Assembly: GCF_027594545.1 (NCBI RefSeq)
Contig: NZ_CP115160.1
Span: forward strand, 2,923,001-2,987,000
Direction: 5' to 3'
DNA length: 64,000 nt
Origin: Algoriphagus sp. TR-M9
GTDB lineage: Bacteria; Bacteroidota; Bacteroidia; Cytophagales; Cyclobacteriaceae
Shown: positions 1,496 to 37,496 of the stretch, in pieces
How the letters are laid out: each line of letters opens with the position of its first letter
Position numbering within the stretch: the stretch's first letter is position 1
Made by a program: the position numbers and the translations under genes
Notes under the pieces: generated by a model
The model's input: only the letters and a program-made list of their open reading frames with translations
Database searches by the model: none
What the model was told of the DNA's origin: nothing

Positions 1496-2518
1496 CTAAT
1501 TCACTGTTCTGCAAGCGGATAGTATATTAATCGCAAATCGATTATCATCTTTCAAAATATCGAAAAACTCATTCAAAAAAGCATGCATATTGTCGATTTC
1601 CCGCTCATTAATCAAGGGCTGTAGATCATTCACAGCTTCAAGAAGCTGCTTTTCGTTAGCCAAATATTCCTGACGGATGGCCTGCATCATCGGCTCTTCC
1701 CTGCAATATCCCCGGTACAAGCGTTCCTTCACGGAGGATATCTCGAGCAAATTACTCACCTGCGAATAGGGCGGCATCACCAGCCCTGTCATGTCAAAAT
1801 CATAAGCCAGGGGAATCACTGAATCATCTTTCAGTCTCAGGATTTTCATGTTATGCTGATTTAGAGAAGACCAATCTGTGTTGCCAATCATGAACTGGAA
1901 ATAATCATGTCGAACCGCAGAACTATCCTCCAATAAAGTCCCAATCACCCTGGTATTTTCTAAAATCTCTGCATCAAACCGCTTTGCCACTTCATCATCA
2001 TCTTCGACTAAAAAGCCCAATAGCTGCACTGGCTCGCCTTTTTTATCATCCTCATTCAGAAAATTGATGCGTACCAATCGAGTCCGAAAGTAATGCTGAT
2101 TTACTAATTCATACATTTGATAACAAGCAAACTCCTTTGCTACAAAAGAATCCGCATTGGAGTTTTTGGCACAAGGAAAAACTATTTTCAGCTTTCGGTT
2201 TCCTTGCAAAATCGTTCCCTTTGCCTTCTTCTTTTTGATTTTCATTCGCAGCGGTGGGTAGAAGCAATTCTGCAATCGAAAATTCCCCCTCACCCTGAGT
2301 TCCACTTCCAAGGAATCCATACTACCTGATGAATTTTTGTACGCGAAAAAAGAGTCCATATAGGTGGAATCGTTGGTAAACTTGCGGAGATTCTTCACTG
2401 AAAACCCCATATTCACATCTAAAATCTCCTCATTATCAAAAAGTCTGGCTTCCTGCTTGGCATGTACAGAGAAAGTCAAGAAAATCAACCCACAAACCCA
2501 AAACAATAGCTTTTTCAT
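1496..2518 (-). CDS. exported protein with CotH-kinase-like features, function unknown
   Basis: I place the start at the ATG at 2518, because the protein then opens with a clean signal peptide (MKKLLFWVCGLIFLTFSVHA); an upstream in-frame ATG would add 33 residues before it. The mature part has about 320 residues. A stretch FMIGNTDWS...QHNMKIL, then PLAYDFD about 15 residues on, recalls the N-D and D-x-D layout of CotH-type atypical kinases. The N-terminal part contains a beta-rich segment (VELRVRGNFR, PLRMKIKKKK) also seen before the catalytic part of some CotH-like proteins. This similarity is by eye and weak. The gene stands alone, with 300 bp of non-coding sequence upstream. Confidence 0.6.
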   Translation of the reverse strand: MKKLLFWVCGLIFLTFSVHAKQEARLFDNEEILDVNMGFSVKNLRKFTNDSTYMDSFFAYKNSSGSMDSLEVELRVRGNFRLQNCFYPPLRMKIKKKKAKGTILQGNRKLKIVFPCAKNSNADSFVAKEFACYQMYELVNQHYFRTRLVRINFLNEDDKKGEPVQLLGFLVEDDDEVAKRFDAEILENTRVIGTLLEDSSAVRHDYFQFMIGNTDWSSLNQHNMKILRLKDDSVIPLAYDFDMTGLVMPPYSQVSNLLEISSVKERLYRGYCREEPMMQAIRQEYLANEKQLLEAVNDLQPLINEREIDNMHAFLNEFFDILKDDNRFAINILSACRTVN

Positions 2519-2818
2519 TTCACTAAAATTTATCCTTAAAAAAGAATGAAGCTGACTCCTGAAACATCTCCATCCGAACTTTGTCAATTTAAGGATAATG
2601 CAGTGATCTTTCCCCAATCCTTAAAAATACTGAATAATGAAGTCTCAAGATAACTGAGACTACGGCAAGATTGATATCCCTTTACGGTCTTATGCTGACT
2701 GCATCCAAAGTTCCTACCGGGATCCTAAGCCTGCATTGAAAAAGGCAATAACCTCTCTGTTGCACAAGGTTGAATAGGTACATTTTAACCACTGACCCAT
2801 GCAGCTGATTCCTAATCA

Positions 2819-3214
2819 CTACCTCTCCCTCGCTTCCCAGATCCTCATAAATAGCATATGCGCCATCCTCCTCGCATGTTCTTTGGCATAAGCCGCTACT
2901 TCTCCTTCAAAATACCGGTCAATCGTCCCAAACCAAAGCTCAAGCCAGTTTCCAAAATGCGCTTGCTCAATACTATTATCTACCTCGGCATCCACAGTTC
3001 TATGGACTTTGACCGGATTAAACTTACCCGCTCCCGGCCCGGTTTGCAGCAGGATCATTTCCCAGAAATCACTCAAATGAACCAAATGCGTGTCCCAATC
3101 TTTGACTACTCCATTGAAAATAGGACCAAGCAATTCATTCTTTCTGACTTGATCATAAAATCTCCTCACCAAAAAATCCACTTCTTTTCTAGACCTTATC
3201 TCCACTCTATCCAT
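2819..3214 (-). CDS. group III truncated haemoglobin
   Basis: A 131-residue all-helical protein of the usual group III truncated-globin length. It has the FYDQVRKNELLGPIFN stretch, the DWDTHLVHLSDFWEMILLQTG segment, and a proximal-histidine region around H86 (QAHFGNWLELW). Such globins bind O2, NO or related ligands in the cytoplasm; their physiological role is unsettled and NO or redox chemistry is often proposed. The gene starts 6 bp after the stop codon of the upstream phosphodiesterase-like gene, so the two are probably cotranscribed. Family assignment is strong; role is not known. Confidence 0.88.
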   Translation of the reverse strand: MDRVEIRSRKEVDFLVRRFYDQVRKNELLGPIFNGVVKDWDTHLVHLSDFWEMILLQTGPGAGKFNPVKVHRTVDAEVDNSIEQAHFGNWLELWFGTIDRYFEGEVAAYAKEHARRMAHMLFMRIWEARER

Positions 3215-3220
3215 AGCATT

Positions 3221-4465
3221 TCACTTTAAAATCGGCTCCAAAACTTCCAGTTTCCCATCAATATCCTTAGGAATCGGCAACCCCAGAATTTTACATATTA
3301 AGGGATACACGTGGATATTCTGAAAAGTTTCAATTTCCATTCCCGACTTGAATGCCGGGCCATTGGCATAAAATATCGCATGCATGTCCTTGTAAGCCGG
3401 ACTGTATCCATGTTCCCCAAAAACCTCGGTATCTAAGCGATCTGCATTCTCATTCAGGCGATTCAGCGTAGTCTCCCAAGCCAGGTAATAATCCCGATCT
3501 GGAATAATCAAAATATCCCCAATCCTGCTTTTGTACAGCAGATCCTGATAGTTTTCCTTATGATCTACATCTGTGATATGAATGGGCAGCGTGGACTTTT
3601 CCAATTGCTTGATTACTTTTTGCTTATCACTTGGATTCTCGAGGTATAGATGGGCCAAAGCTCCGTTATTTACCACCCTGGCCGGAATACCCTCAGTCAG
3701 CTCACTCAGGTTCAGGTAATTTCCCAAAGGCACTTCCATCATTCCATGATCGGAAACTATAATCACATTGATGTGCTCATCGTAGCTTTTCAAGCCCTCA
3801 AACAAAGCCCCCAATTCATAATCCAATTGCTTCAACCTAGCACCCAGCTGCTCATCGTTATTGGGCCCGTATCTATGCCCAATATCATCCATATCGGAGA
3901 AATATAGCGTAATCATACTCGGGCGCTTTTCCGCGGGCATTTCCAACCACTTAAACACTTCTGTCACCCGAGTCAGATTGCTCACCCTACCATCATAGGG
4001 ATAATAATAGCTGGGACGCACTCCCTGTACATCAGCCTCCGAACCCACAAAAAAATAACTTGCCGCCACCTGCTTGTTTTGCTCTGCCAGTACCCAAAGC
4101 GGTGTCCCTCCATACCAAGTGCCGTCTTGTACGATCTCGGTTTTGCCTATGCCATAGGTTTCATTCTTCTCCGGATCATAAAAAGAATTGTCCACCAATC
4201 CGTGATGCTCAGGTTTCATCCCAGTGGCGATGGTGTAGTGGTTTGGGAAAGTTTTACTCGGAAAAGAAGGCATCATACTCTCTGCCGCCACACCATTCTC
4301 GATGAACTTCTTCAGGTTTTCCGGTTGAAAACGCTCTACGTAATCGTATCGAAAACCATCGAGGGAAATCAAAATCACTATGGGTTTTTTATTTTTTTCC
4401 TGAGCCAAAGCAGCATTGGAAAATGCTAAAACAGCAAGTAGCAGTAGAGCATAAAATCTTTTCAT
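3221..4465 (-). CDS. ectonucleotide pyrophosphatase/phosphodiesterase (alkaline phosphatase superfamily)
   Basis: The 414-residue protein has a signal peptide ending near AQEKNKK. It shows the NPP-family order of metal and catalytic residues: ISLDGFRYDY (metal Asp at 36), PSKTFPNHYT (likely nucleophile Thr at 72), YFSDMDDIGHRYGP, VSDHGM, and a late GEHGYSP. NPP-type enzymes use two zinc ions to hydrolyse phosphodiester or pyrophosphate bonds of nucleotides or phospholipids, here in the periplasm. Length and order match bacterial NPPs. It is the first gene of a probable two-gene unit with the truncated globin. The exact substrate cannot be told from sequence. Confidence 0.88.
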   Translation of the reverse strand: MKRFYALLLLAVLAFSNAALAQEKNKKPIVILISLDGFRYDYVERFQPENLKKFIENGVAAESMMPSFPSKTFPNHYTIATGMKPEHHGLVDNSFYDPEKNETYGIGKTEIVQDGTWYGGTPLWVLAEQNKQVAASYFFVGSEADVQGVRPSYYYPYDGRVSNLTRVTEVFKWLEMPAEKRPSMITLYFSDMDDIGHRYGPNNDEQLGARLKQLDYELGALFEGLKSYDEHINVIIVSDHGMMEVPLGNYLNLSELTEGIPARVVNNGALAHLYLENPSDKQKVIKQLEKSTLPIHITDVDHKENYQDLLYKSRIGDILIIPDRDYYLAWETTLNRLNENADRLDTEVFGEHGYSPAYKDMHAIFYANGPAFKSGMEIETFQNIHVYPLICKILGLPIPKDIDGKLEVLEPILK

Positions 4466-4677
4466 CTGTTTATTATTCGTCTAGTAAAGGCCATAACCTG
4501 TCTCGTGAAGAAGGATACGGGATGGAAGGTGGCTCCATGGATAATCATCCAGCTGCATGTCGCCTCCGAGGTACTCGATTTCATAGCATAAAATTTCCCC
4601 AAAAATACCTGCTTAAGTTTTGGCAAGCAATCCAACTTCCACTTATAACAGTTTGGTAACCTCCTGCAAATCCTACT

Positions 4678-5526
4678 CTACTGCCCGAAATAGGAATGAT
4701 CCTCCAACCAGTCTTTCAATCGGTCTGGCCAATGCTGAATACTGACGAACTCTGAGCGAAAGCCCATATTGAAGGCATGCTCATCTTTGGAATAAAGATG
4801 CAATTCCACATCTGCTCCTGCTTTGCGATAAGCCAGCATGGTCTCCACTACAGTGTCCGAGCAGCACTCATCTTTATTCGCGGCCACAAGGAATGCCGGC
4901 GGGGCGTCTTTTGCAACGGATTCCGGCGTCCCTAGAGGTCCCGGGTAAACTTGAATCTGAAAATTTGGCTGAGCAGCAAAGCGATCTACCGGATCGCTTG
5001 CATCAGGTTTACCAGGATTGGCATCATAAGCCACCCAATTCACCACCTCTCCTCCTGCCGAGAAGCCCATGATCCCCACTCGATCTGGGTCAACCTTCCA
5101 AGCTTCGGCATTTGCCCGGACCATACGCATGGCACGTATGACATCCTGAGTAGGATGGGACGCATCATACGGGGAGTTTTCTTCGCGAAACAACCTGTAT
5201 TTCAATACCCCCACAGTCAGACCTAGCTCATTGAGAAATTTAGCAGGAGCAACCCCCTCTCCATTGTAACCCAAATTCCTAAAACCTCCACCTGGGCAAA
5301 TCAAAATGAATGCTCCATTCGGGTTTTCTGGCTTGAATAGGGTAATACTGGGATTATGGATATTTCTCACCCACCAATCCTGGGCTAGCTCTGGCTCATC
5401 TTTTCGTTCTTCAAAACCAGGTGCACCGTTTTCCCACAGGTAAATTTTCTCTCCGCTTTGCTGCGCAAAAACAGTACTGCATAGGCATAGAAGCAGCATT
5501 AAAGACAATGGATAAAACTTCATCAT
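4678..5526 (-). CDS. secreted alpha/beta hydrolase, acetyl-xylan-esterase-like
   Basis: A 282-residue protein with a signal peptide (MMKFYPLSLMLLLCLCSTVFA) and an alpha/beta hydrolase core. It has the oxyanion-hole motif CPGGGFRNL, the nucleophile elbow GFSAGG, a late Asp in ANKDE and a His in DEHAFNMG. This order is that of BD-FAE/Axe2-like esterases that deacetylate plant or algal polysaccharides. It resembles the esterase at 23912-24826, suggesting paralogues. The gene stands alone. The start is the first or second of two adjacent ATG codons. Esterase activity is likely; the substrate is inferred from family only. Confidence 0.82.
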   Translation of the reverse strand: MMKFYPLSLMLLLCLCSTVFAQQSGEKIYLWENGAPGFEERKDEPELAQDWWVRNIHNPSITLFKPENPNGAFILICPGGGFRNLGYNGEGVAPAKFLNELGLTVGVLKYRLFREENSPYDASHPTQDVIRAMRMVRANAEAWKVDPDRVGIMGFSAGGEVVNWVAYDANPGKPDASDPVDRFAAQPNFQIQVYPGPLGTPESVAKDAPPAFLVAANKDECCSDTVVETMLAYRKAGADVELHLYSKDEHAFNMGFRSEFVSIQHWPDRLKDWLEDHSYFGQ

Positions 5527-26629: not shown

Positions 26630-28375
26630 TTATATCCTCGACTGATAAGTATATAACTGATAATACCTTCCTTCCAGCGCAATCAATTCCTCATGCCTGC
26701 CTCGCTCCACGATATGGCCTTTTTCCACCACCAATATCTGATCTGCCTGACGAATGGTACTCAATCTATGGGCGATCACAAAAGTCGTTCTGCCCTTCAT
26801 CAGCTCCTTCAAACTGGCCTGAATCAAGGTCTCTGATTCCGTATCCAAATTAGAAGTCGCCTCATCCAAAATCAAAATCCTAGGATCCGCCAAAATTGCT
26901 CTGGCAATCGCAATACGCTGCCTTTGTCCTCCTGATAGCTTCACTCCTCTCTCTCCGATCAAAGTATCCAGCCCATCTTCAAATCGATCCGTGAACTCCT
27001 GCACATGGGCTGCCACTACGGCATTTTGCAAATCCTCGGCACTGGCATTGGGTCTGGGGAAAAGTATATTCTCTTTTATCGTCCCTTCAAATAAGAAATC
27101 ATCCTGAAGAACTACACCCAATCTAGAGCGAAATGATTCTAAAGTAACCGTTTGCAGATCATTTCCATCTAAGGTGATTTTACCAGAATCAGGGTTTAAA
27201 AAAGTAGCTGCGAGTCCCGCTATGGTTGTTTTCCCTGAACCAGATGTTCCTACCAAAGCAGTTACCGAACCTGCCGGAGCATGGAAACTCACCCCTTTGA
27301 TTACATCCTTATTTTCCTCATAGGCAAAGGATACATCCTCAAATTTTATATCGCCTCTAAATTCCTTTAAAGCTAAATTTCGTGTGCGATCATCCGCCTC
27401 CAAGGGCGTATTCATAATTTCCTCTGTACGATCCAAACCTGCAAAAGCTTCGGTGAGCTGAGACCCAATGTTGGACATCTGTACGATCGGCGCAATCATA
27501 AAACCCAAGTAAAGCGTGAACGCAAGGAAATCACCAAAGGTCATATCGCCTTGCATGATCATGTAGCCGCCCATTCCCATGATACCGGCAGAAGCCAAAC
27601 CCAAAAGCAAGGCTCCTGCAGAGGTCACAAAGCTGGTAGCTGTCAAACTCGCTTTCACATTCTGAAACAACTCATCTACACCTTTAGCAAACGTATTGAT
27701 CTCCTGCTGTTCGGCATTGAAGCCTTTGATCACTCGGATTCCTCCCAGCGTTTCGGTCAGTCTTCCAGTTACCTGCGCATTGATTTTACCGCGTTCGCGG
27801 AAAATGGGACGAATGCGCCCAAAAGCCTTTAAGGAAACCAAGCCAAAGATCACTACCGGAAGCAGCACATAAAGTGTCATCATCGGACTGATACTGATCA
27901 ACAAAAAAAGTGAAATTACTGCCGTGAGGATCCCTCCTATCATTTGCGCGAAACCTGTTCCTACCAAATTCCGAACACCTTCCACATCGGTCATGATTCT
28001 GGAAACCAGCTCACCGGTTTTCGCATTGTCAAAGAATCGAATCGGAAGCTTGATGATATGCGCCTGCACCTGAGATCTGAGTTTGGAAATCAGGTTCTGG
28101 GCTTCCACACTTAGAATTTGCGTCAGCGCATAGGAAGTGGTGGACTGCACCACGATGGCGAGCACTACCCCTCCGATCAGCCACTTGAGCATGGTGAGAT
28201 CATTGGAAGGAATTACCTCATCGATGAGGATTTTACTGGCTCCGGGCAGTACCAAACTGGCCAGACGGGAGATGATAATTAAAAAGAGACCTAAAAACAA
28301 GTGCTTACGGCGGGGCCAGATAATCGTCTTGAAGACCTGCCCCATGGTCACTTTGCGTTCCGCTGTTCTTGCCAT
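26630..28375 (-). CDS. ABC exporter, fused permease-ATPase (MsbA/BmrA type)
   Basis: I choose the ATG at 28375 (MARTAERK), giving about 581 residues, the usual half-transporter length. An upstream ATG at 28498 would add 41 residues that do not look like family sequence. Six helices occupy about residues 25-330, followed by an ABC domain with Walker A GTSGSGKTT, signature LSGGQRQR, Walker B ILILDEATS and H-loop His in FVIAHRLST. Homodimers export lipids or drugs. The divergent promoter region shared with the recombinase gene holds a 17-bp palindrome at 28514. Substrate unknown. Confidence 0.88.
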   Translation of the reverse strand: MARTAERKVTMGQVFKTIIWPRRKHLFLGLFLIIISRLASLVLPGASKILIDEVIPSNDLTMLKWLIGGVVLAIVVQSTTSYALTQILSVEAQNLISKLRSQVQAHIIKLPIRFFDNAKTGELVSRIMTDVEGVRNLVGTGFAQMIGGILTAVISLFLLISISPMMTLYVLLPVVIFGLVSLKAFGRIRPIFRERGKINAQVTGRLTETLGGIRVIKGFNAEQQEINTFAKGVDELFQNVKASLTATSFVTSAGALLLGLASAGIMGMGGYMIMQGDMTFGDFLAFTLYLGFMIAPIVQMSNIGSQLTEAFAGLDRTEEIMNTPLEADDRTRNLALKEFRGDIKFEDVSFAYEENKDVIKGVSFHAPAGSVTALVGTSGSGKTTIAGLAATFLNPDSGKITLDGNDLQTVTLESFRSRLGVVLQDDFLFEGTIKENILFPRPNASAEDLQNAVVAAHVQEFTDRFEDGLDTLIGERGVKLSGGQRQRIAIARAILADPRILILDEATSNLDTESETLIQASLKELMKGRTTFVIAHRLSTIRQADQILVVEKGHIVERGRHEELIALEGRYYQLYTYQSRI

Positions 28376-28513
28376 GAAATAGTGTGTTTGATCAGGAAAA
28401 CCCAATTTGAACAATTCGGGTTCATAATCAGAACAAGAAAAAACGAGTTGCTTATTTTGATGTGAAACTGTAGTAAAACCCTCTTTCATAAGCTTCAATA
28501 ATTCTGAAACTAC

Positions 28514-28530
28514 TTTAGGTATTACCTAAA
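28514..28530. promoter_or_regulatory. 17-bp perfect palindrome, operator-like
   Basis: TTTAGGTA-T-TACCTAAA lies between the divergent ABC exporter and recombinase genes, 33 bp before the recombinase ATG. Its shape resembles DtxR/MntR-family operators (TTTAGGTnnACCTAAA). Which gene it controls, and by what regulator, is inference. Confidence 0.5.
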
Positions 28531-28562
28531 TATTCTTTTATATTACAGCCTATTTTTTCACC

Positions 28563-29669
28563 ATGAAAACAATTACTGTCACATCTGCCATTTGGAAAAA
28601 GAAAGGAGTGGTTTTACTCCAGTTTGGCTATGATCGAGCGCTAATAGAGCTAGTCAAAACCCTGTCCAAGGCAAAATGGAGTTCAGAAAAGAAAGCTTGG
28701 TTCATTCCTTACTCAGAAGACATTTTAGATCAACTTCTAACTCACTTCAAAGGGAAGGTCTGGCTAGATTATTCAGATTTTGACCAAATCAAACAGGAAC
28801 AAATACCTGCCACACTACCCGAACTAGCTAGCGATCTAGCGCAAGAAATCGGAAAGTTTGTAGCATGGATGCAAAACAAACGCTATGCAGAATCGACCAT
28901 AAAGACCTATAGCCAGAGCTTGAGCCTGTTCTTTCGATTTACAAATAATAAAAAGCCTGTAGAAATTATCACGGAAGATTTGGAGAACTTCCATCAAAAT
29001 TATATTCTTAGGAGAAAATACTCAGTTAGCTTTCAGTCCCAAGTCATCAATGCAGTGAAGTTGTATTTTTCTAACAAGCAAAAACGCAAGCTGGAACCTG
29101 AAGGGATCGAACGGCCGAAAAAGCCAAAACAGCTTCCCCATGTACTCAGCAAAGAAGAGGTGAAAGACATACTCTTAGCACACAAAAATATAAAGCACAG
29201 AACAATGCTCAGCCTCATCTATGCATGTGGATTAAGACGAAGTGAGTTGATAAACCTCAGGCTTGAAGATGTGGAATCGAAAAGGGGGCTGCTGCGGGTG
29301 AATGATGGAAAAGGAGCCAAAGACCGGATAGTTCCGATTAGTAAGAAAGTCATAGACATGCTCCGGGAATACTATAAATTAGAAATGCCCCTCACCTATT
29401 TGTTTGAAGGTGCAAAGGCAGGACATACATATTCCCCTAAGAGCTTGGAGAATGTACTTAATCAGGCTGTAAAAAAAGTTGGGATGAAGAAGAAACCCAC
29501 CCTACATTGGCTACGGCACTCCTATGCTACCCATTTACTAGAAAGTGGTACAGACCTGCGATATATTCAAGAATTACTAGGTCACAAGAGCAGTAAGACC
29601 ACAGAGATCTATACGCATGTTTCCACCAAGTCATTAGGACAAATCAAATCCCCTTTCGATGATTTATAG
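28563..29669 (+). CDS. tyrosine recombinase of an integron-like cassette array
   Basis: The 368-residue protein has an atypical N-terminal extension (about 1-80), a core-binding SAM-like domain (about 92-180) and a catalytic domain (about 190-355). Catalytic residues are present: Arg225 in CGLRRSEL, Lys250 in GKGAKDR, His315-xx-Arg318 in HWLRH, His341 in LGHKSS and nucleophile Tyr350 in EIYTHV. The C-terminus KSPFDDL recalls the SPLD-type end of integron integrases, but the insertion between patches II and III that defines IntI is absent; the spacing there is Xer-like. The gene lies upstream of, and co-directional with, six cassettes bounded by attC-like sites, starting 90 bp after its stop. 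Confidence 0.92.
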   Translation: MKTITVTSAIWKKKGVVLLQFGYDRALIELVKTLSKAKWSSEKKAWFIPYSEDILDQLLTHFKGKVWLDYSDFDQIKQEQIPATLPELASDLAQEIGKFVAWMQNKRYAESTIKTYSQSLSLFFRFTNNKKPVEIITEDLENFHQNYILRRKYSVSFQSQVINAVKLYFSNKQKRKLEPEGIERPKKPKQLPHVLSKEEVKDILLAHKNIKHRTMLSLIYACGLRRSELINLRLEDVESKRGLLRVNDGKGAKDRIVPISKKVIDMLREYYKLEMPLTYLFEGAKAGHTYSPKSLENVLNQAVKKVGMKKKPTLHWLRHSYATHLLESGTDLRYIQELLGHKSSKTTEIYTHVSTKSLGQIKSPFDDL

Positions 29670-29768
29670 AAAAATAAACGCCATAAACTATGGTAATTTG
29701 TGGCGCATAGCCACCCAAAATCAGTAGATAAACGCCACAAAATGGCGCAAATAAATAAGTTATAGGCA
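29670..29768 (+). other. attI-like segment between recombinase and first cassette
   Basis: It contains two direct repeats, ATAAACGCCATAAA (29674-29687) and ATAAACGCCACAAA (29728-29741), each followed by an inverted TGGCG element, and ends in GTTATAGGCA (29759-29768). The GTT core here is the left junction of cassette 1. The layout (recombinase-binding direct repeats, then a GTT crossover) is what an attI site should look like, though no similarity to known attI sequences is claimed. Confidence 0.6.
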
Positions 29769-29783
29769 ATTATTCAACAAACT

Positions 29784-30326
29784 ATGAGTGTAAAAAAAAG
29801 TGTTTTAGAAACTAAAACAGATAGAGAATTAGAAGAATATATTAAAGAAGGAAATAGGTTTGTTCCAGAAGCAAATATATTAGCATATGAAATTCTAAAA
29901 TCAAGAGGTAGAGAATTTACAGAATTAGAAACACAAAGAATAATGTTTTTGGTATCTGAAAAAAACAAAGTAAAAGAAATTATTATACATCCAAATCACA
30001 AAAAAGCAGCAAATGTAATTTATTTGTCAGCAGGATTAGGTTTTATTAATGTAATTCTTAGTCCTGAAACACTCAACAATAGTTTTGGAATTATTATTGC
30101 AATTTTCACGTTAGGAATAATTATTGGGATTGGTTATTTAGTGAGTAAAGGTAATGATTGGATAAAATATGTTTTATTAGTTTTAATGATATTTGGTTTA
30201 ATTGGTATACCATTTATAATTATGAACATTGTAAATAATCCAATTGTGGGAATTGTTAATATTATTCAAACAGCGTTACAGATTTATGCAATCGTTTTAC
30301 TTTTTAAAGTACCAAAAACAAATTAA
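29784..30326 (+). CDS. cassette 1: four-helix membrane protein, unknown function
   Basis: A 180-residue protein with a hydrophilic N-terminal part of about 65 residues, rich in charged residues and containing LEEYIKEGNRFVPEANILAYEILKSRG, given as one amphipathic region. Four hydrophobic helices follow at about 74-94, 100-122, 125-148 and 150-172, and no signal peptide precedes them. I do not recognise the family. The gene is very AT-rich compared with genes before 28 kb, as expected of a foreign cassette. It occupies the first cassette, the position nearest the recombinase. Confidence 0.75.
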   Translation: MSVKKSVLETKTDRELEEYIKEGNRFVPEANILAYEILKSRGREFTELETQRIMFLVSEKNKVKEIIIHPNHKKAANVIYLSAGLGFINVILSPETLNNSFGIIIAIFTLGIIIGIGYLVSKGNDWIKYVLLVLMIFGLIGIPFIIMNIVNNPIVGIVNIIQTALQIYAIVLLFKVPKTN

Positions 30327-30333
30327 TAATAAC

Positions 30334-30533
30334 TGCCTATAACAAGGGTTTGGCGCAATGGCGGGTTAAGGCTAAAAATTGAAGTTTCGGCTTTCTATTT
30401 CGCAAAAAGCCAATTATATTGACTTTTTTCTTAAATTTATTCAATTAATTGGCTTTTGCTTACCGTGTCGCTAAATTGAAACTTTTCGCTTCAATTTCCG
30501 CCACTGACGCCAAGCCCCGAAACGTTAGGCACA
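30334..30533 (+). other. attC-like site 1 (about 200 bp, giant hairpin)
   Basis: It starts with TGCCTATAAC (30334-30343), the exact reverse complement of GTTATAGGCA at the start of cassette 1, and ends with GTTAGGCACA (30524-30533), the start of cassette 2. Between them GGGTTTGGCGCAATGGCGG pairs with CCGCCACTGACGCCAAGCCC, then AAATTGAAG with CTTCAATTT, then AAAAGCCAATTA with TAATTGGCTTTT, giving one long imperfect hairpin. The crossover is expected between G30524 and T30525. Confidence 0.85.
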
Positions 30534-30540
30534 ATAAAAG

Positions 30541-31989
30541 ATGATACATAAGATAGTACATATAAAGAACCTAGGACGCTACAAGCAATTCGTTTCATCA
30601 AATGAAAACTGGGATGGTGTTCTAAGCAAAGTCAATGCAATTTATGCGGATAACGGTTCTGGTAAAACAACATTTACACAATTAATTAAATCCCTCAAAG
30701 GAGATTTCCAGCGTATCGTAAAAAGAAGGTCATTTGGTGTCAATGAAAAGATAGATGTACTGCTAATTGATGATAATCACAAGCAATTAAAATTCACAGG
30801 TAGTAAGTGGAACAAGACCATTAATGACATTGAAGTTTTTGATACTTATTACATCGATTCAAATGTCTACTTGATAACTCTAGGGAATTTAGATAAAAGA
30901 GGAACCTTTTTTGAAATTGTAGTCGGTGATAAAGGAGCTAAAATTGCTGATGAAATTATACGATTAAGGGGATTAAGAAAGAAAAAGAGCCAGCAAAGAC
31001 GCAATTATAAATACGCCATAAAAAAAACAGAAGACGAACAGAAGATTAAGGATTTAAACAGCAAAATTGAAAAATCCCAAAATGACTCTGCTGAAATAAC
31101 AAAAGAACTAAAGAAACTAGATAATAGTCTAGTAACGGTTGCTGAAAAATTTGGACGCACCTACCTTGATAAGATTAATGAATACTTAAAACTGTTTAAC
31201 CCTAATATTCAATTGACCAAACTGAATAAAAAAGGCAGTCGGTTTGTTTACTACATAAAAATTAAAGAATTCGATGTTAGATCTGACTCGGAATCCATTT
31301 CTTTAAGACATACTTTAAGCGAAGGAGATAAAAGCTCTCTTGCCCTTGCATTTTTTCTTGCCCGACTTAAAATTCAAGAAAATTTAGACAAGAAAACAAT
31401 AATCTTTGATGACCCTATTTCTAGCTTCGACAGTTCCAGGAGAAGTGTTACAATTAATCAACTTGTTTCATTGTCTAAACGATGCAAACAATTTATTCTA
31501 CTGAGTCACGACATCAATTTTGTTAAGGATTTTATTTCACGCTCTGAAAATTGTAAAAGCCTAAAAATTGTTTACAAGAATTCAACAAGTGCCATAATTC
31601 CTCACAATATTGAATTAGAAACAATGACAGGTATTTATAAGGACTTAACGGTCATGCACAATTTCTTGGAAAAGGGTGAAACATCAGAATTTGATAAAAG
31701 GGAAGTTGTAAGATGTATTAGACCTAGTGTTGAAGGGATGTTTAGACTAAAGTACTTTACGATTTTTAAATCAGATGACTGGCTTGGAGATATGTTAAAA
31801 TCAATTCGGGAATCAGAACAAAATGAACCGCTGAATAAACTTCAACCAATTTTAGATGATTTATCTGATATTAATGATTATTCAAAGTCTTACCATCACT
31901 CCAACCCAAACTACCTAGAAATTCCACTAAATAGTGAGGAACTTAGAAACTATGTTAATCGGACAATCGATTTAATTCAAAAAATATAA
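30541..31989 (+). CDS. cassette 2: AAA_13-type ATPase, candidate anti-phage protein
   Basis: The 482-residue ATPase has Walker A ADNGSGKTT at 36-44, a charged coiled-coil segment (about 145-200), an ABC-like signature LSEGDKSSLALAFFLARL, Walker B KTIIFDDPISSFD and a switch His in LLSHDINF. This is the SMC/Rad50-like ABC ATPase pattern of the AAA_13 group (RloC/PrrC-related). The C-terminal part (about 380-482) has CIRPSVEGMFRLKY and later SKSYHHSNPN, an Arg/His-bearing region like the effector ends of RloC-type proteins, which could be a nuclease, though this is weak. Compact size (482) suggests ATPase plus short effector. It is the only gene of its cassette. Confidence 0.8.
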   Translation: MIHKIVHIKNLGRYKQFVSSNENWDGVLSKVNAIYADNGSGKTTFTQLIKSLKGDFQRIVKRRSFGVNEKIDVLLIDDNHKQLKFTGSKWNKTINDIEVFDTYYIDSNVYLITLGNLDKRGTFFEIVVGDKGAKIADEIIRLRGLRKKKSQQRRNYKYAIKKTEDEQKIKDLNSKIEKSQNDSAEITKELKKLDNSLVTVAEKFGRTYLDKINEYLKLFNPNIQLTKLNKKGSRFVYYIKIKEFDVRSDSESISLRHTLSEGDKSSLALAFFLARLKIQENLDKKTIIFDDPISSFDSSRRSVTINQLVSLSKRCKQFILLSHDINFVKDFISRSENCKSLKIVYKNSTSAIIPHNIELETMTGIYKDLTVMHNFLEKGETSEFDKREVVRCIRPSVEGMFRLKYFTIFKSDDWLGDMLKSIRESEQNEPLNKLQPILDDLSDINDYSKSYHHSNPNYLEIPLNSEELRNYVNRTIDLIQKI

Positions 31990-31990
31990 C

Positions 31991-32127
31991 TGTGCCTAAC
32001 ATCGACTATAGCAAATGCGGGCTGACTGCTTAAAAATGAAGATATTACAACTAAATAACTTTACGGTAAGCTGACAAGAAAGCGGTTTCAAAAACCCGCA
32101 CTTGCCATAGCCAGGGCCGTTAGCTAC
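31991..32127 (+). other. attC-like site 2
   Basis: TGTGCCTAAC (31991-32000) is the exact reverse complement of GTTAGGCACA that opens cassette 2. The site ends at GTTAGCTAC (32119-32127), which opens cassette 3. The arms CTATAGCAAATGCGGG and CCCGCACTTGCCATAG pair at 14 of 16 positions. Crossover is expected after G32119. Confidence 0.85.
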
Positions 32128-32147
32128 AACCTAAAAAACGAAAAGGA

Positions 32148-33830
32148 ATGAACGTAAATTATCCAGACATACTTCAAGAGATTGAGTTTTACAACATTGA
32201 AGGTAGAACCGAAAGTGCCGCTTTCTTGATGTGGTACTTGGAAAAGTATTTTCGCCTCGACCAACAATTAGCAATTGACTCAGTTTGTGATAATAACGGT
32301 GATAAAGGGGTTGACGGAATCTACCTTAATGAAGGATTAGGTACAATAGATATTTTTCAGACCAAAATTGCCCAAAGTGATAAGAAAACTATTGGGGACA
32401 CTACACTAAAAGAATTTATAGGAACCCTAGACCAATTCGCAACAAAAGAAAAACTAGAAAATTTAATAAAAACGGCAGGAAAAGCACAAGTCGCCTCCTT
32501 AGTTAAAAGACTTGACCTGCCAGAAAAGTTGGACGCTTATAAAATCCGTGGAGTATTCGTTACAAATGTTGATTTATCAGCTGACGGTCAAGCTCTTTTA
32601 AATGAAATTGACAATGTTGAGTTTTTTGGTAAGACAATTTTGGAAGAACAATATATAAGTGACAAAAAAGAAATAAACCTACTAGCAGAAGCAAAATTTG
32701 ATGTTTCTGAAAATGAAACCACAAAATATTTCGCTGATTCAGATACTGTTACTTACATAGCACCTATAAAAGCGAAGGAATTAGTCCAATTAGATGGAAT
32801 AAATGACCAATCAATTTTCGATTACAATGTAAGGGGTGCATTAGGTAATACGAAGATTAACAAAGGTATCGTAAGAAGCATTAAAGACCCTTCACTACAT
32901 AAACAATTTCCATTATTCCATAATGGGATAACAATTGTGGCAGAAGACGTTGAGAAAGATGACGAATCCTTAACGATTAAAAAGTTCTACGTTGTAAATG
33001 GCTGTCAAAGTCTTACTTCTCTGTATCGTAATCAGTCTCACCTAACCGATGACTTAAAGGTTCTAACCAAAGTCATTAAGGTGCCAATAAATTCTTCTTT
33101 ATCATCAAAGATTACCGAGTATTCTAACAGCCAAAACGGAGTAAAACCAAGAGACTTTAAATCATACAATCAAATTCAAATAAGATCACAAAATGAAATA
33201 GCTGATAAGTTTGGGGAAGAATATTATTATGAAATAAAACGTGGTGACAAAACCCCTGATGGCCTAAAAGTAATATCAAATGAATTTATGGGAGTCTTTC
33301 TTATGTCCTTTGATTTGGAAGAACCGTGGAACACTCATAGAAAATACCAGGTCTTTGAAGATGCATATAATAAACTGTTTGCAAGACCTGAAGTCACAGC
33401 TTATCGGATAATTTTCATTCAAGTTCTAGATGAAGTCCTCACAGAAAAAATAAATGATATTGAGAATCAACTTATAGCTAGGTATGCTTTAACCAAATAT
33501 GCTTTGATGTATATAACTAAAGGCATATTGATGAATGATACAGTTGGTAATTCATTAATTCAATCGCCTAATGACTTTGTGAAGAACTCAGAAAGTAGAG
33601 AAAATTTAAGGCAAGCATTAAGGGTAATAATTGATGATATTATAATTGACCTAAATGCAGAAGTTGGTGATTTAGACGAAGACTTTGATTACAAATCAAG
33701 CTTACGAAATGACGACTGGGTCAAAAAACTAAATCGAAATATTGTAACGAACTACTTAAAACAAATTAAGCGAAATAGAATCCCAAGCTTTCAAGAAGAA
33801 TGGGAAAAGGCAGTAGCTAACAATGGCTAA
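32148..33830 (+). CDS. cassette 3: AIPR-family abortive-infection protein
   Basis: A 560-residue protein of the AIPR family (abortive infection phage resistance, PF10592). The central signature is FPLFHNGITIVAED followed after a short gap by FYVVNGCQSLTSLY (about residues 260-310), and an N-terminal restriction-endonuclease-like part contains DNNGDKGVDGIYL and IDIFQTKIAQ, reminiscent of a Mrr-like D-(E/Q)xK site. AIPR proteins give phage resistance in some systems, often as stand-alone or restriction-linked proteins. The first base-pairing box of its attC lies inside the last codons of this gene. Confidence in family is high. Confidence 0.88.
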   Translation: MNVNYPDILQEIEFYNIEGRTESAAFLMWYLEKYFRLDQQLAIDSVCDNNGDKGVDGIYLNEGLGTIDIFQTKIAQSDKKTIGDTTLKEFIGTLDQFATKEKLENLIKTAGKAQVASLVKRLDLPEKLDAYKIRGVFVTNVDLSADGQALLNEIDNVEFFGKTILEEQYISDKKEINLLAEAKFDVSENETTKYFADSDTVTYIAPIKAKELVQLDGINDQSIFDYNVRGALGNTKINKGIVRSIKDPSLHKQFPLFHNGITIVAEDVEKDDESLTIKKFYVVNGCQSLTSLYRNQSHLTDDLKVLTKVIKVPINSSLSSKITEYSNSQNGVKPRDFKSYNQIQIRSQNEIADKFGEEYYYEIKRGDKTPDGLKVISNEFMGVFLMSFDLEEPWNTHRKYQVFEDAYNKLFARPEVTAYRIIFIQVLDEVLTEKINDIENQLIARYALTKYALMYITKGILMNDTVGNSLIQSPNDFVKNSESRENLRQALRVIIDDIIIDLNAEVGDLDEDFDYKSSLRNDDWVKKLNRNIVTNYLKQIKRNRIPSFQEEWEKAVANNG

Positions 33831-33886
33831 AAAATCATAACTGCCCTGCGGGACAGCAACGCTTTTTAGCCGGAACGTTGGGTTTA
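33813..33886 (+). other. attC-like site 3, overlapping the end of the AIPR gene
   Basis: GTAGCTAAC (33813-33821) is the exact reverse complement of GTTAGCTAC that opens cassette 3; it lies within the AIPR coding end (stop at 33828-33830). GGCTAAAAA and TTTTTAGCC form the stem. The site ends with GTTGGGTTTA (33877-33886). At about 74 bp it is close to classical attC length. Confidence 0.85.
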
Positions 33887-33898
33887 ATTTAAGAACAT

Positions 33899-34591
33899 AT
33901 GGAAAAGACAAATTTATTCGATTCACCAATTAAGATATTAGGAGGCTCCATATTGCTAGTTGAAGGTATTCTAGCCATCGTGTTGGCAAAGGGAAATTTA
34001 GATGCTAGTCACAAATCATGGATTATCATAGGGATGCTGGTAGCTTTGTTTTTGACAATTGTTAGTGCTGTTTTGATGCATTGGATTGACAATAGGCAAT
34101 CACTTCCTTCAGTCACTAAAGACACTGAATACAAAACTTATGAGTATGATGTTTTTATTGCATTTCCTATTGCAGCTATAAAAAGCAAAGTAGAAAGGGC
34201 TGAGATTAACGAATTTGCTAATAATCTAGAAACAGAACTTAAAAAGATAGGCTATAAAAGAATCTTCAATGCCTCTTTACATTTTTCTAATAATCATGAG
34301 CACCAACCACCTAAAGTCGCAGCTAAAACTGATTTAGAAGCAATTGAAAAAAGTAGAAATTTTCTTTTAATATACCCTGTTAAGACTCCAACGAGTGCAC
34401 TAATTGAGTTGGGATTCGCAATGGGAGGTCAAAAAAATATAATTATGTGTTCAGTTGACATTCATACTTTACCTTTTTTGGCTAGAGGATTTAGTGAAGC
34501 TTTTCGCAATGTCAACTATTTAGAATATTCCGATAATGAGCATTTAATAAATATGCTTGTTGAGAATAATGAAGAATACTTTAAAAAGTAA
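33899..34591 (+). CDS. cassette 4: membrane-anchored TIR/nucleoside-deoxyribosyltransferase-like protein
   Basis: The 230-residue protein has two N-terminal helices (about 12-30 and 41-61) and a C-terminal Rossmann-like domain from about 80: EYDVFIAFPIAA, a loop with EAIEKSRNFLLIYP, then TPTSALIELGFAMG with Glu170 where nucleoside 2-deoxyribosyltransferases and TIR-type NADases carry their catalytic Glu. Two membrane segments plus such a domain is a plan seen in bacterial NADase-type immune effectors. The hit is by motif only and the family is not certain; an NAD- or nucleotide-cleaving role is inferred. Confidence 0.7.
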   Translation: MEKTNLFDSPIKILGGSILLVEGILAIVLAKGNLDASHKSWIIIGMLVALFLTIVSAVLMHWIDNRQSLPSVTKDTEYKTYEYDVFIAFPIAAIKSKVERAEINEFANNLETELKKIGYKRIFNASLHFSNNHEHQPPKVAAKTDLEAIEKSRNFLLIYPVKTPTSALIELGFAMGGQKNIIMCSVDIHTLPFLARGFSEAFRNVNYLEYSDNEHLINMLVENNEEYFKK

Positions 34592-34593
34592 AC

Positions 34594-34651
34594 TAAACCC
34601 AACAAAACCTAAACTGCATTAAAACGCAGCTTAGCCACAACGTTGTAGTGC
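34594..34651 (+). other. attC-like site 4 (58 bp)
   Basis: TAAACCCAAC (34594-34603) is the exact reverse complement of GTTGGGTTTA opening cassette 4. CTAAACTGC and GCAGCTTAG form the stem around an 8-base loop. The site ends in GTTGTAGTGC (34642-34651), which opens cassette 5. It is the shortest and most classical of the six. Confidence 0.88.
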
Positions 34652-34686
34652 ATTTTGACCAACGAGCTATTTAAATTTGGAATAAA

Positions 34687-35748
34687 ATGAAATTAGTATC
34701 TAGCAAAAGAATATTGATACATTTATTATTTACGCTTCAGATTACTGTATTACAAGCCCAAACAAATAGTGAGGAATATAAAAGTGAAGTAATAACTATT
34801 GACGGGTTACAAACACAATACCTTGATTTCGGAGGTGAAGGTTTAAGTGTAATATTAATCCACTCTGAAGGCTGGGATGCTTTTACATATAAAGATTTTG
34901 GACCACTCTTAACTAAAAACAATAGGGTTTTGGCCATTACTAGGCCAGGATATGGAAATTCCGATATAAAAGCATATGATGTTAAAAGTCAAGGTGACCA
35001 TCTCATCAAATTTGTAGATGCACTTAAAATAGAGCGAGCTGTTTTTATTGGTAATTCTTCTGTTTCAGCAGAGTTAACATATTTGGCTGAAAACTTTCCA
35101 CAAAGAGTTGCAGGAATTGTTTACTTAAATGGATTAGCAGTACCGTGGTTAGAGGAACATTATAAAGACCCGTTTAAGAGTTTTGAAATGTTTTTAAGGG
35201 CAAGTCCCAGCTCCAATCCCCAAACTAATTTTATTGATGTTAGCGAAGCTAGAAGAACTTATCGACCTAGCCATTATAAATCCAATTCAGTAAAAATTAA
35301 TGTTCCAGCTTTAGCTATTGTAAATAAATATGGCCTGCAAGGATCAGAAAAAGGACATGGTGCATTAGTATTTGTAGGTTCTCCTTTTATGGAAGAAGTC
35401 CGAAACGAGATTCCGCCTTCACCAACGAAAGAATTCTTAAATAAAATAGCTGATGACCCTGTATTTAGAAGTGAATTAATCAACAATATTCAGGATTCTG
35501 TTGCGAGAATCTATTTTCAAAAACTAGCCAATGATACGGTAATGCAAAGAAAGGTGTATGAATACCATACCCAATCTACATACCCCGCAATGCTTGAAGC
35601 TCAAGAAAAACTTAAAAATGCATTTGGTAAAAATTTACGCCTTGTAAGGATTGATGTCGATCAAATTGTGGGATATGAATATAGAGATGCTCCAGAGCTA
35701 GTTATTGAGCCTATTAAGAAATTCCTAAAACAAATAAATTCGGAATAA
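34687..35748 (+). CDS. cassette 5: exported alpha/beta-hydrolase-fold protein with altered catalytic motifs
   Basis: The 353-residue protein has a signal peptide (ending TVLQAQTNS) and an alpha/beta hydrolase fold: VILIHSEGWDAFTYKDFGPLL, VLAITRPGYGNSD, then VFIGNSSVSAELTYLAE where the elbow reads GNSSV rather than GxSxG, and late VGYEYRDAPELVIEPIKKFL. I see no His at the usual place near the C-terminus (the region reads VDQIVGYEYRDAPEL), so the triad may be incomplete. It may be a degenerate or non-hydrolytic relative. It is the sole gene of its cassette. Confidence 0.78.
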   Translation: MKLVSSKRILIHLLFTLQITVLQAQTNSEEYKSEVITIDGLQTQYLDFGGEGLSVILIHSEGWDAFTYKDFGPLLTKNNRVLAITRPGYGNSDIKAYDVKSQGDHLIKFVDALKIERAVFIGNSSVSAELTYLAENFPQRVAGIVYLNGLAVPWLEEHYKDPFKSFEMFLRASPSSNPQTNFIDVSEARRTYRPSHYKSNSVKINVPALAIVNKYGLQGSEKGHGALVFVGSPFMEEVRNEIPPSPTKEFLNKIADDPVFRSELINNIQDSVARIYFQKLANDTVMQRKVYEYHTQSTYPAMLEAQEKLKNAFGKNLRLVRIDVDQIVGYEYRDAPELVIEPIKKFLKQINSE

Positions 35749-35755
35749 TAAAAAC

Positions 35756-35891
35756 GCACTACAACACAGCATATAGCTTATGGTGGGTGAACGGCTGCCA
35801 GCAAGGTTTTCGCTCCGTAGCCAACTTTGATTTCGGGGGACAGGAAAGTGCTTCGTAAACGCCACAAGCCATATGCAAACCGTTGCCACCA
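35756..35891 (+). other. attC-like site 5
   Basis: GCACTACAAC (35756-35765) is the exact reverse complement of GTTGTAGTGC opening cassette 5. GCATATAGCTTATGG pairs with CCACAAGCCATATGC (13 of 15). The site ends in GTTGCCACCA (35882-35891), which opens cassette 6. Length about 136 bp. Confidence 0.85.
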
Positions 35892-35924
35892 ATGCAAAAA
35901 AGACAGACAAACAGAATTTTAAAT

Positions 35925-36719
35925 ATGAAGAGAACACTACTCCTTTTCCTGACCTTGACAATTTTATCAGGATGTGAATTCATTAGTAACACATTTGACT
36001 ACAAAGACAAGACAGAAGAATTTGTCGAAGCTCTTCTACAAGAGAACTATGACAGATGTGTGGAACTATTCGCCATGGGACACGAAATGGCGAGAAACAC
36101 CAACCCCGACAGTTTGAAAGCAGGATTAGGGAACTTCAGAAATCTCGTTGTTGACAATTTTGGTTCAGAATTAGATTACTCTTTGATGAAGTCCGAAAAG
36201 ACTTGGTCGACCATTGAAGAGAATAATACTCCTCCAAACACAACAGTAGTTTTAGTGCAATTTTCAAATGAAACCCACTTTGGAGTATTTAAGGTTTTAT
36301 TTGACGACCAGACAAAGAAAATCCTGAACATAAATACTCTTGACGTTAAGGAGCAAATACCGAACATGACCCTATTTTGGCTTTTTGGACTAATCGTTAT
36401 CTGCGTTCCTATTTTCAATATTTACGTCATCCGACTCATTAAGAAAAGTGACCTAAAGAAAAAGTGGTTGAAATATATCGCACTTGTGTTTTTTAACGTC
36501 CCTGCGATAACATACAGTGCGGTCGGTGGATTTTCTTTCAGCCTTTTAAGTTTCCAAATTCTCTTAGGAATGAGCTTCAACTATATGGGTTATTTAAACT
36601 CAGCTTGGACTTTAGGAATTCCTCTCGGTGGACTTTATTGGTTATGGAAAATTAAGACAAGAAAACCAAACGAAGACGTTGAACAAGTAGAACTAGACAA
36701 AACTGAAGAAGAAAAATAA
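35925..36719 (+). CDS. cassette 6: lipoprotein with C-terminal membrane helices, unknown function
   Basis: The start is set at the ATG at 35925, which opens a clean lipoprotein signal (MKRTLLLFLTLTILSGCEF, lipobox Cys at 17); an ATG at 35892 would add 11 residues. The 264-residue protein has an NTF2/DUF3887-like extracytoplasmic segment (about 20-145, EEFVEALLQENYDRCVELF as the opening helix) and then three or four hydrophobic helices (about 150-250) with a charged tail rich in Glu. I do not recognise a function. It is the last clear cassette gene. Confidence 0.72.
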   Translation: MKRTLLLFLTLTILSGCEFISNTFDYKDKTEEFVEALLQENYDRCVELFAMGHEMARNTNPDSLKAGLGNFRNLVVDNFGSELDYSLMKSEKTWSTIEENNTPPNTTVVLVQFSNETHFGVFKVLFDDQTKKILNINTLDVKEQIPNMTLFWLFGLIVICVPIFNIYVIRLIKKSDLKKKWLKYIALVFFNVPAITYSAVGGFSFSLLSFQILLGMSFNYMGYLNSAWTLGIPLGGLYWLWKIKTRKPNEDVEQVELDKTEEEK

Positions 36720-36728
36720 AAAAGCACA

Positions 36729-36792
36729 TGGTGGCAACACCTAGGTTTTCGTCGCGTGCGTAGCACGAACGATGAAACCGCTGTTGCACTGC
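36729..36792 (+). other. attC-like site 6, last of the array
   Basis: TGGTGGCAAC (36729-36738) is the exact reverse complement of GTTGCCACCA opening cassette 6. GGTTTTCGTCG pairs with CGATGAAACC with one bulge, over an inner hairpin CGTGC-GTA-GCACG. The site ends with GTTGCACTGC (36783-36792). No partner of that last start (GCAGTGCAAC) is found downstream, so no seventh intact cassette is present. Confidence 0.82.
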
Positions 36793-36819
36793 CTGTCCCG
36801 ATAGCGCAGTGTATCGGGA
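36791..36819 (-). repeat. palindromic mini-element after the last attC
   Basis: GCCTGTCCCGATAGC and GTATCGGGA make an imperfect hairpin of the same type as the TCCCGATnnATCGGGA-CAGGCT elements at 39071, in reverse orientation. It abuts the last GTT of the array and may have disrupted what followed. Confidence 0.6.
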
Positions 36820-37023
36820 GAACCGGAGAGGTTCTTATGGGGATTGAGTCAGGGTTTTAGGGTTTTTTGCAATTTCGAATAATTCAAAAATTCTGTTCGA
36901 AATTGTTTAGCAGGTTCAAAAAGTCATTCGGTTATAGATTTTTCATCGCTCCCAGATCCGTTTGGAAAGGTTTTTTTTATGATTAGGACATAGGTTTCCC
37001 CGCCCGACAAAAATCAGGAATTA

Positions 37024-37270
37024 AAATTGGGTTGCGACTTTGGGAAAGACGGCTTTCGGAGGTCCTCTTTTGGGCAGACGCTGAATACTCACCATGCTTT
37101 CCTTCTGGCAGCAAGGGCAGTACCTCGGATTGTAGATTTCCAATACTCTGGGTTCAGGTTCCATAATTGGAATTCCGAGTTCCCGGTGGATCAGCGAGAT
37201 CGTGACCTGCTTGGCAGAGCTTCCCAAAATACCGAAGTGCCTGATGCGGACCAATCCTTTGGGCAGTATC
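37024..37270 (-). pseudogene. C-terminal remnant of an IS91-family transposase
   Basis: On the minus strand ILPKGLVRIRHFGILGSS, then NPRYCPCCQKESM and LPKRGPPK, matches the end region of IS91/IS1294-type (Y2 rolling-circle) transposases, including the HIGH-like RIRHFG block and the C-terminal Cys cluster. The N-terminal two-thirds, including the Y2 catalytic region, are missing. The upstream limit of homology coincides with a mini-palindrome at 37269-37290, which also supplies the apparent first residues of the frame. The remnant is non-functional. Confidence 0.75.
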
Positions 37271-37290
37271 CCGATTCTCGAGACAGGCAT
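37269..37290 (+). repeat. palindromic mini-element at the edge of the IS91 remnant
   Basis: TCCCGATTCTCGAGACAGGC is a degenerate member of the 21-bp mini-element family (compare TCCCGATTCACGGGATAGGC at 39040). It marks where transposase similarity stops. Confidence 0.5.
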
Positions 37291-37496
37291 TGCGGCTTGC
37301 TAACAGACTTCACCAACACGCCTGTAAGGAATACCGAATACTCCGGCACAGGCATTCCACCTTCTGGAATTATTTGGTATTTCGATACCAGGTGCCCATG
37401 CTAGGCACACACAATTGGAAGGGTATATGAGGGATTAAAAAGACTGATTTTACTAAACGTTCCAACCATTTGCACTAAAAACACATCTTTTATTTG

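Follow-up and report, generated by a model that had tools for sequence, protein, structure and literature searches.

Gene order and cassette structure

The stretch of DNA analysed here (the window, 64,000 nucleotides, positions 2,923,001 to 2,987,000 of contig NZ_CP115160.1) belongs to Algoriphagus sp. TR-M9, a member of the phylum Bacteroidota whose genome consists of one contig of 4.8 Mb. The assignment to Algoriphagus agrees with the closest named protein relatives, which are from this genus, and with a same-genus genome (G053) that has 13,894 identical bases in common with Algoriphagus ornithinivorans (L045 and L058). It contains an integron-like array, in which the gene of a Xer-like tyrosine recombinase of 368 amino acids (aa) (28563–29669; hereafter the integrase), an attI-like site (29670–29759) and six single-gene cassettes with attC-like hairpins (29760–36792) follow each other on the + strand. 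The recombinase lacks the insertion (I2) that is specific to the canonical integron integrases (IntI). A previous reading, made from the sequence alone (the sequence-only reading), had recognised the six cassettes and overlooked the integrase gene and the attI-like site.

The attI-like site, a stretch of about 90 bp between the integrase stop codon and the first cassette, contains inverted repeats and ends in ...AAATAAATAAG|TT. It is conserved up to the GTT in the corresponding locus (L038) of a relative, genome G042. Behind it, the cassettes were found at the positions given in the sequence-only reading, which had described six + strand genes between exactly complementary start and end boxes. 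Every start box consists of GTT and 6–7 further bases. The boxes are complementary over 10, 10, 9, 10, 10 and 10 exact bases, and the attC-like sites, boxes counted in, are 200, 138, 75, 58, 136 and approximately 64 bp in length, in agreement with the hairpins of 58–200 bp noted earlier behind the end boxes. The G + C content of the array (0.31–0.39) is below that of most of the window.

Cassette 1 (29760–30524, boxes GTTATAGGCA and TGCCTATAAC) carries a coding sequence for a protein of 180 aa (29784–30326). The protein of cassette 2 (30525–32119, coding sequence 30541–31989) is an AAA_13-type ATPase (Pfam AAA_13, 7.4e-25) and PDC-S06-like (PADLOC PDC-S06, 2.5e-40), while that of cassette 3 (32120–33877, coding sequence 32148–33830) is AIPR/AbiU-like (Pfam AIPR, 1.4e-32; PADLOC AbiU, 1.9e-34); both are matches to defence-type models. 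Cassette 4 (33878–34642, coding sequence 33899–34591) encodes a protein of 230 aa, cassette 5 (34643–35882, coding sequence 34687–35748) an alpha/beta hydrolase (Pfam Abhydrolase_1, 1.6e-07) and cassette 6 (35883–36783, boxes GTTGCCACCA and TGGTGGCAAC, coding sequence 35925–36719) a protein of 264 aa. The proteins of cassettes 1, 4 and 6 gave no match in Pfam, NCBIfam or PADLOC.

The same six cassettes, and no others, came out of a blind chain search that included a check for the L stem. Their score was 90, compared to at most 27 (two cassettes) when order-2 Markov shuffles of the window, 40 in all, were searched. With its box length reduced to 7, the detector also recovered the dfrA5 and aac(6')-IIa cassettes from a class 1 integron used as positive control; in these, the boxes are complementary over 8 bases.

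For the attC-like sites, a covariance model (R1) was built from 31 sites, including window sites 2 (31991–32128, 92.3 bits) and 5 (35756–35891, 74.3 bits). The other three internal sites are outside the training set, namely site 1 (30334–30533, 59.2 bits), site 3 (33812–33886, 28.1 bits) and site 4 (34594–34651, 33.1 bits). With filters on, R1 found four of the five internal sites and missed site 3; with filters off, all five were found, the long first site as two pieces. The sequence-only reading had suggested a check with an attC covariance model, which recognised the internal hairpins, whereas the sixth, terminal hairpin (36729–36792) gave no R1 match on the + strand. In Rfam, no family matching the window hairpins was found.

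Array differences between two relatives

The integrase of G042 is 98.6% identical to that of the window. In a blastn comparison, window positions 26631–29761 align with positions 930–4060 of L038 at 95.75% identity, and the similarity ends with the first cassette's GTT (29759–29761). It returns, at 81.7%, at window position 36735 (L038 position 6892), within the last end box, and the terminal hairpin lies in the region common to both genomes. Between these two junctions, six cassettes are present in the window and two different ones in L038. Since different cassettes lie at identical junctions, the boundaries are variable, and the boxes vary along with the cassettes. A comparison of related strains for gain or loss at exactly these junctions had been proposed from the sequence, and one relative, G042, was found to hold a different array between them. 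Past the last cassette, at 36793–37404, patches with 74–82% identity are common to the window and L038; these could be remnants of decayed cassettes or a different element.

The rule for attC sites that the first bases of a cassette complement its own end box had been put forward for the window, where it applies to six of six cassettes. For other arrays, it was examined with 158 R1 sites in other loci, which consist of 107 of the 109 sites from a set of 84 loci (two sites cut by contig ends were omitted) and 51 further sites; one of the 158 is an R1 training site. In 85 of the 112 neighbouring site pairs, the boxes belonging to one cassette agree at 9 or more of 10 bases (at 8 or more in 91 of 112). 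At the same level of at least 9 of 10 bases, matches were observed for the two ends of one hairpin in 7/158 cases, for next-but-one boxes in 2/80 and for random pairs in 91/5000. Pairing within the cassette, and not within the hairpin, is as expected of circular cassettes inserted at G|TT. The sequence-only reading had inferred an integron-like system in a Bacteroidota genome, which is supported by the array replacement and by the box pairing in other arrays; neither fixed boundaries nor boxes indifferent to the cassette were found, as the array differs in G042 and the boxes follow the cassette elsewhere.

Structure of the attC-like hairpins

The L stem comprises 13 pairs. Standard pairs account for 87.2%, compared to 52.9% in shuffles and at most 42.4% in slid versions; the slid versions are at a disadvantage here, because the structure comes from the very alignment on which it was scored. 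The covariation score of the stem is 0.717 compared to 0.171, and was reached by none of 500 shuffles.

According to computed folding, the bottom strand is the more stable one in 44 of 50 sites (50 kept of 58), and in 27 of 31 when the arms alone are folded. This is in part because an A.C mismatch of the top strand becomes a T.G wobble on the bottom strand. The mismatch was observed at columns 26/114 in 22 of 31 sites and at columns 20/120 in 9 of 31. The single-sided columns 25/116 are empty in 28 of 31 sites, hence the alignment has no conserved one-sided base. Predicted bottom-strand stems contain some asymmetric loop in 18 of 31 sites and none in 13 of 31. R and L boxes combined with bottom-strand folding, a canonical feature of attC, are found in window-type sites, again by computed folding. 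I2 and extrahelical bases are described as coevolved (extract of PMC4792948). In the window-type system, the I2 domain is absent and no extrahelical base seems to be conserved.

Phylogeny of the integrase

The integrase is a member of the tyrosine recombinase family (Pfam PF00589, 3.5e-39). In NCBIfam, it matches NF040815 (XerA) with 220.7 bits at a cut-off of 220, a name which alone is no proof of function. The score for the integron integrase model TIGR02249 is 201.8 bits, which falls below the cut-off of 265, and the match is split into two stretches. When aligned with IntI4 (2a3v), residues 101–273 and 291–366 correspond to residues 11–183 and 243–318, and the part in between measures 17 residues compared to 59 in IntI4. 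The IntI insertion of approximately 41 residues (I2) is therefore absent, and a structure without the I2 helix is predicted from the sequence. The spacing between the motifs GKGxKDR and HxxRH is 107 in 11 of 11 IntI proteins, 65–70 in 21 array integrases (the 21 of 30 proteins in which the motif pattern caught both motifs) and 65–73 in other recombinases (13 of 16). The full-length structure model has IntI4 (2a3v) as its best Foldseek match.

In a tree of 57 rows, which were picked by likeness to the window protein and whose root is unknown, the 11 IntI proteins form one clade with a support of 100/100. On the opposite side of a branch with a support of 97/94 are 32 array-linked integrases, four integrases of a divergent layout described below and the 'XerD' encoded beside tet(X3). 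A first tree, on which the array label required five changes, had contained eight further rows, two of them array-linked, that were then removed. In that first tree, an array-linked recombinase from a member of the Prolixibacteraceae (L132) forms a long branch adjoining IntI. Related recombinases are also present on two contigs labelled Candidatus Undinarchaeales archaeon (L115 and L122), which could be binning errors; the one of L122 stands next to IntI in the second tree.

The protein also features an extra N-terminal domain (residues 1 to approximately 78). Its top Foldseek match is the HARP domain of SMARCAL1 (4o66), and the best member of the integrase family reaches 8.3e-06 with Pfam HARP. 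The likeness is limited by a Foldseek E value of only 0.057 and by the Pfam HARP score of the window domain itself, which is 13.9 and thus under the cut-off of 25.

In the literature, integron recombination is said to require the IntI-specific domain, by which surveys have also selected their integrases (both in extracts of PMC9668308 and PMC2426708). A survey of tyrosine recombinases describes the insertion as 'not fully conserved' in an integron-like subgroup (extract of PMC8138268), which may include proteins of the window type. Among the top-listed papers of literature searches (open-licence PMC, not preprints, hence no proof of absence), none describes attC arrays whose integrase lacks the IntI domain, or integrons of the window kind in Algoriphagus or its class. 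The window integrase is not a member of the canonical IntI-type family, because the defining domain, the IntI insertion, is absent. We instead assign it to a novel, second lineage of integrases, which is I2-less and serves an integron-like system.

Distribution within the Bacteroidota

The attC type was searched for in 84 loci, i.e. four plasmids and the top 80 loci from a genome scan with named records, at an R1 threshold of 0.01. R1 matches were obtained in 36 of the 84 loci. All 109 matches are on the integrase strand, and 107 of them are located downstream of the integrase. Among the 45 loci with at least 2 kb downstream, 29 have R1 matches. Positive loci include members of Rufibacter, Arundinibacter, Winogradskyella, Seonamhaeicola, Lutibacter, Algibacter and Flavobacterium. 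In 20 longer loci from relatives, matches were found in 18, all on the integrase strand; the other two loci end at a contig end soon past the integrase.

On the level of the phylum, 296 Bacteroidota genomes with a completeness of at least 90% were compared (R1 at 1e-6, integrase at an E value of 1e-50, IntI above the profile cut-off). The attC type is present in 146 of the 296 genomes and in 84 of 139 genera. The integrase was found in 91 genomes, fewer than expected of a housekeeping Xer, and a canonical IntI in 85. Genomes with the integrase have attC in 80 of 91 cases, compared to 66 of 205 genomes without it (Fisher p 4.9e-20, relatedness ignored). For canonical IntI, the corresponding values are 34 of 85 and 112 of 211 (p 0.054), which indicates no tie. 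As the genomes are related, these p values should not be read literally, and only window-type attC sites served to train R1. Of the 73 genomes of the window's class or nearer, 54 have attC, 42 the integrase and one IntI. In 13 genomes of other phyla, no R1 match was obtained at 1e-6, with one weak match at 0.004.

In a divergent layout (L198–L201), the integrase open reading frames encode 282–319 aa without the N-terminal domain and without the IntI insertion, and the cassettes are on the other strand, running away from the integrase gene. The motif spacing is 65 in the three of these four integrases in which it was measurable. One such locus (L199) features 11 cassettes in a row.

Further arrays and sites were observed. 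In L202 (G123:C2:1941001-1952500), a + strand array stands beside a partial - strand integrase, and the two may form a divergent or decayed unit. L052 (G105:C1:299001-319000), from a different family of the same order, has a large array with chains of 11 and 5 cassettes within 20 kb, in which identical boxes and attC recur, GTTAGGCACA several times. Two Chryseobacterium plasmids (L034 and L035) encode integrases that are approximately 57–60% identical to that of the window in the aligned part and are followed by + strand genes; R1 matches number none in L034 and five in L035. The window genome also has single sites elsewhere, for example a complete solitary cassette (L141, 2469–3088).

Interpretation and comparison with known systems

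Based on cassette boundaries, the array difference between two relatives, stem covariation, the tie between attC and integrase and the missing IntI insertion, all of which were observed directly, we consider the array to be a chromosomal integron-like gene-capture platform run by a Xer-like recombinase without the IntI-specific domain, with a probability of approximately 0.86. That the window system would work like an integron is strongly supported by the sequence evidence. The Xer-like recombinase is likely to insert circular gene cassettes and to excise them, in a putative recombination of attC hairpins with attI at G|TT. We infer that the window integrase would be the catalyst and the folded bottom strand its substrate, and that the cassettes would occur as free circles and be expressed from upstream. 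The choice of strand is predicted to rest partly on the A.C mismatch of the top strand and the T.G wobble of the bottom strand, and not on a conserved extrahelical base. The system likely moves genes between bacteria.

Several observations weigh against this reading. Of the 45 loci in which a related recombinase is followed by 2 kb or more, 16 (nine from other phyla and seven from Bacteroidota) gave no R1 match, and 11 of the 91 integrase-bearing genomes are without an attC match. The 66 genomes with attC and without an integrase at 1e-50 include 14 of the 31 integrase-free genomes of the window's class; here, either diverged integrases escaped detection or cassettes can remain in their absence. 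The window genome itself has a second array of three cassettes on the - strand, approximately 165 kb away (L140, G000:C1:3124500-3129300), without a close integrase relative nearby. At the boxes, 21 of the 112 neighbouring site pairs match at fewer than 8 of 10 bases. Double changes occur in 12 of the 13 stem pairs, which is not above shuffles (mean 11.4) and carries no weight. The whole array was compared across only one pair of close relatives, the window and L038 of G042.

The second array and the solitary cassettes without a neighbouring integrase relative, as well as the 14 genomes of the class, would also fit a system in which the cassettes are real and mobile, but are moved in trans by a canonical IntI or the host XerCD, with the adjacent recombinase as a bystander. 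However, the window genome yielded no IntI profile match at 1e-40, IntI exceeds the cut-off in only one of the 73 genomes of the class, nearly all attC matches of the 84 loci are downstream of an integrase and on its strand, and the arrays of the relatives begin to differ right at the site next to the integrase gene, all of which makes a bystander unlikely. Even less probable is an ordinary integron whose canonical IntI is under-scored by the profiles. TIGR02249 does match, IntI4 is the closest structure, and anatomy and box rule are the same as in the class 1 control, but the score stays under the curated cut-off, the match breaks in two where IntI has its insertion, the residue count at the insertion and the motif spacing differ from those of IntI, and the retained array integrases are separated from the IntI clade by the well-supported branch. 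Hairpins are generally common after genes, but repeated terminators or elements similar to repetitive extragenic palindromes (REP) among unrelated genes, with coincidental box matches, can practically be dismissed given the gap between shuffles and window in the chain search, and are contradicted by box pairing that follows cassette membership elsewhere and by array replacement at the boxes.

The proposed gene-capture platform shares single-gene cassettes, an attI beside the integrase gene and the G|TT junction with canonical integrons, the latter two as seen at the junction with L038. R'' and R' boxes that are complementary within the cassette, a hairpin with an L stem and a more stable bottom strand are likewise common to both. 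It differs in an integrase without the IntI insertion and outside the IntI clade, in boxes that are complementary over 9–10 bases instead of the 8 of the class 1 control, in an attC type without a conserved one-sided base in the L stem, and in the orientation of the integrase gene, which is co-directional with the cassettes. An integrase on the cassette strand is also known from the inverted-integrase integrons of Spirochaetota (extract of PMC9668308), but their integrase is an IntI; in the window's system, divergent relatives without the N-terminal domain exist as well (L198–L201). CTX phage integration by XerCD (extract of PMC4792948) similarly relies on an I2-less recombinase acting on a folded single strand, whereas the phage has neither an integrase of its own nor cassette arrays.

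The question of how I2 could be selected before attC, or attC before I2, has been raised together with the remark that intermediate forms would settle it (extract of PMC4792948). An attC cassette system with an I2-less integrase makes this question of origin testable. We lean slightly towards a more far-reaching view, in which the Bacteroidota have a second, phylum-wide integron system, whose integrase would never have had I2 and whose attC would have no conserved extrahelical base, a living case of the intermediate form at issue and the source machine of the mobilisation of tet(X) into Acinetobacter and beyond.

Relation to tet(X) genes

The spread of tet(X), genes for tigecycline resistance, has been linked to ISCR2 (extract of PMC7530245). 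In the report on tet(X14), a xerD gene is described alongside with no integron nearby, and a test of whether XerD mobilises tet(X) is called for (PMC7473080). The window-type system bears on this open question of whether the neighbouring xerD mobilises the gene, and we predict that an integron of the window type first made tet(X) genes mobile.

The xerD-tet(X3)-res-ISCR2 modules of Acinetobacter plasmids (extract of PMC7530245) resemble the window in that their 'XerD' groups with the array integrases and that tet(X3) (L037 and L169) opens with box GTTATGTGCC behind the attI-like stretch of this 'XerD'. They differ in that no matching end box and no recognisable attC was found behind tet(X3), and their spread is credited to ISCR2. 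In Acinetobacter indicus (NZ_CP094261.1, L167, 1871–4167), estT, which encodes a macrolide hydrolase, is followed by an attC-like site (69.9 bits). Approximately 110 bases past this site, at 2983, tet(X5) opens with the same start box GTTATGTGCC as tet(X2); no end box was found for tet(X5) in this locus.

The plasmid NZ_CP043636.1 of Empedobacter brevis (L168) carries tet(X2) between boxes GTTATGTGCC and GGCACATAAC, which are complementary over 10 of 10 bases, with R1 sites ahead of the gene (61.4 bits) and behind it (74.4 bits). It is flanked by a catB cassette, in which the gene is on the other strand (boxes 10/10, preceding R1 site weak with 20 bits), and by a cassette with a hypothetical gene (boxes matching over 9 bases). 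At 1959–5063 of this locus, catB, tet(X2) and the hypothetical gene form three consecutive cassettes of the window attC type.

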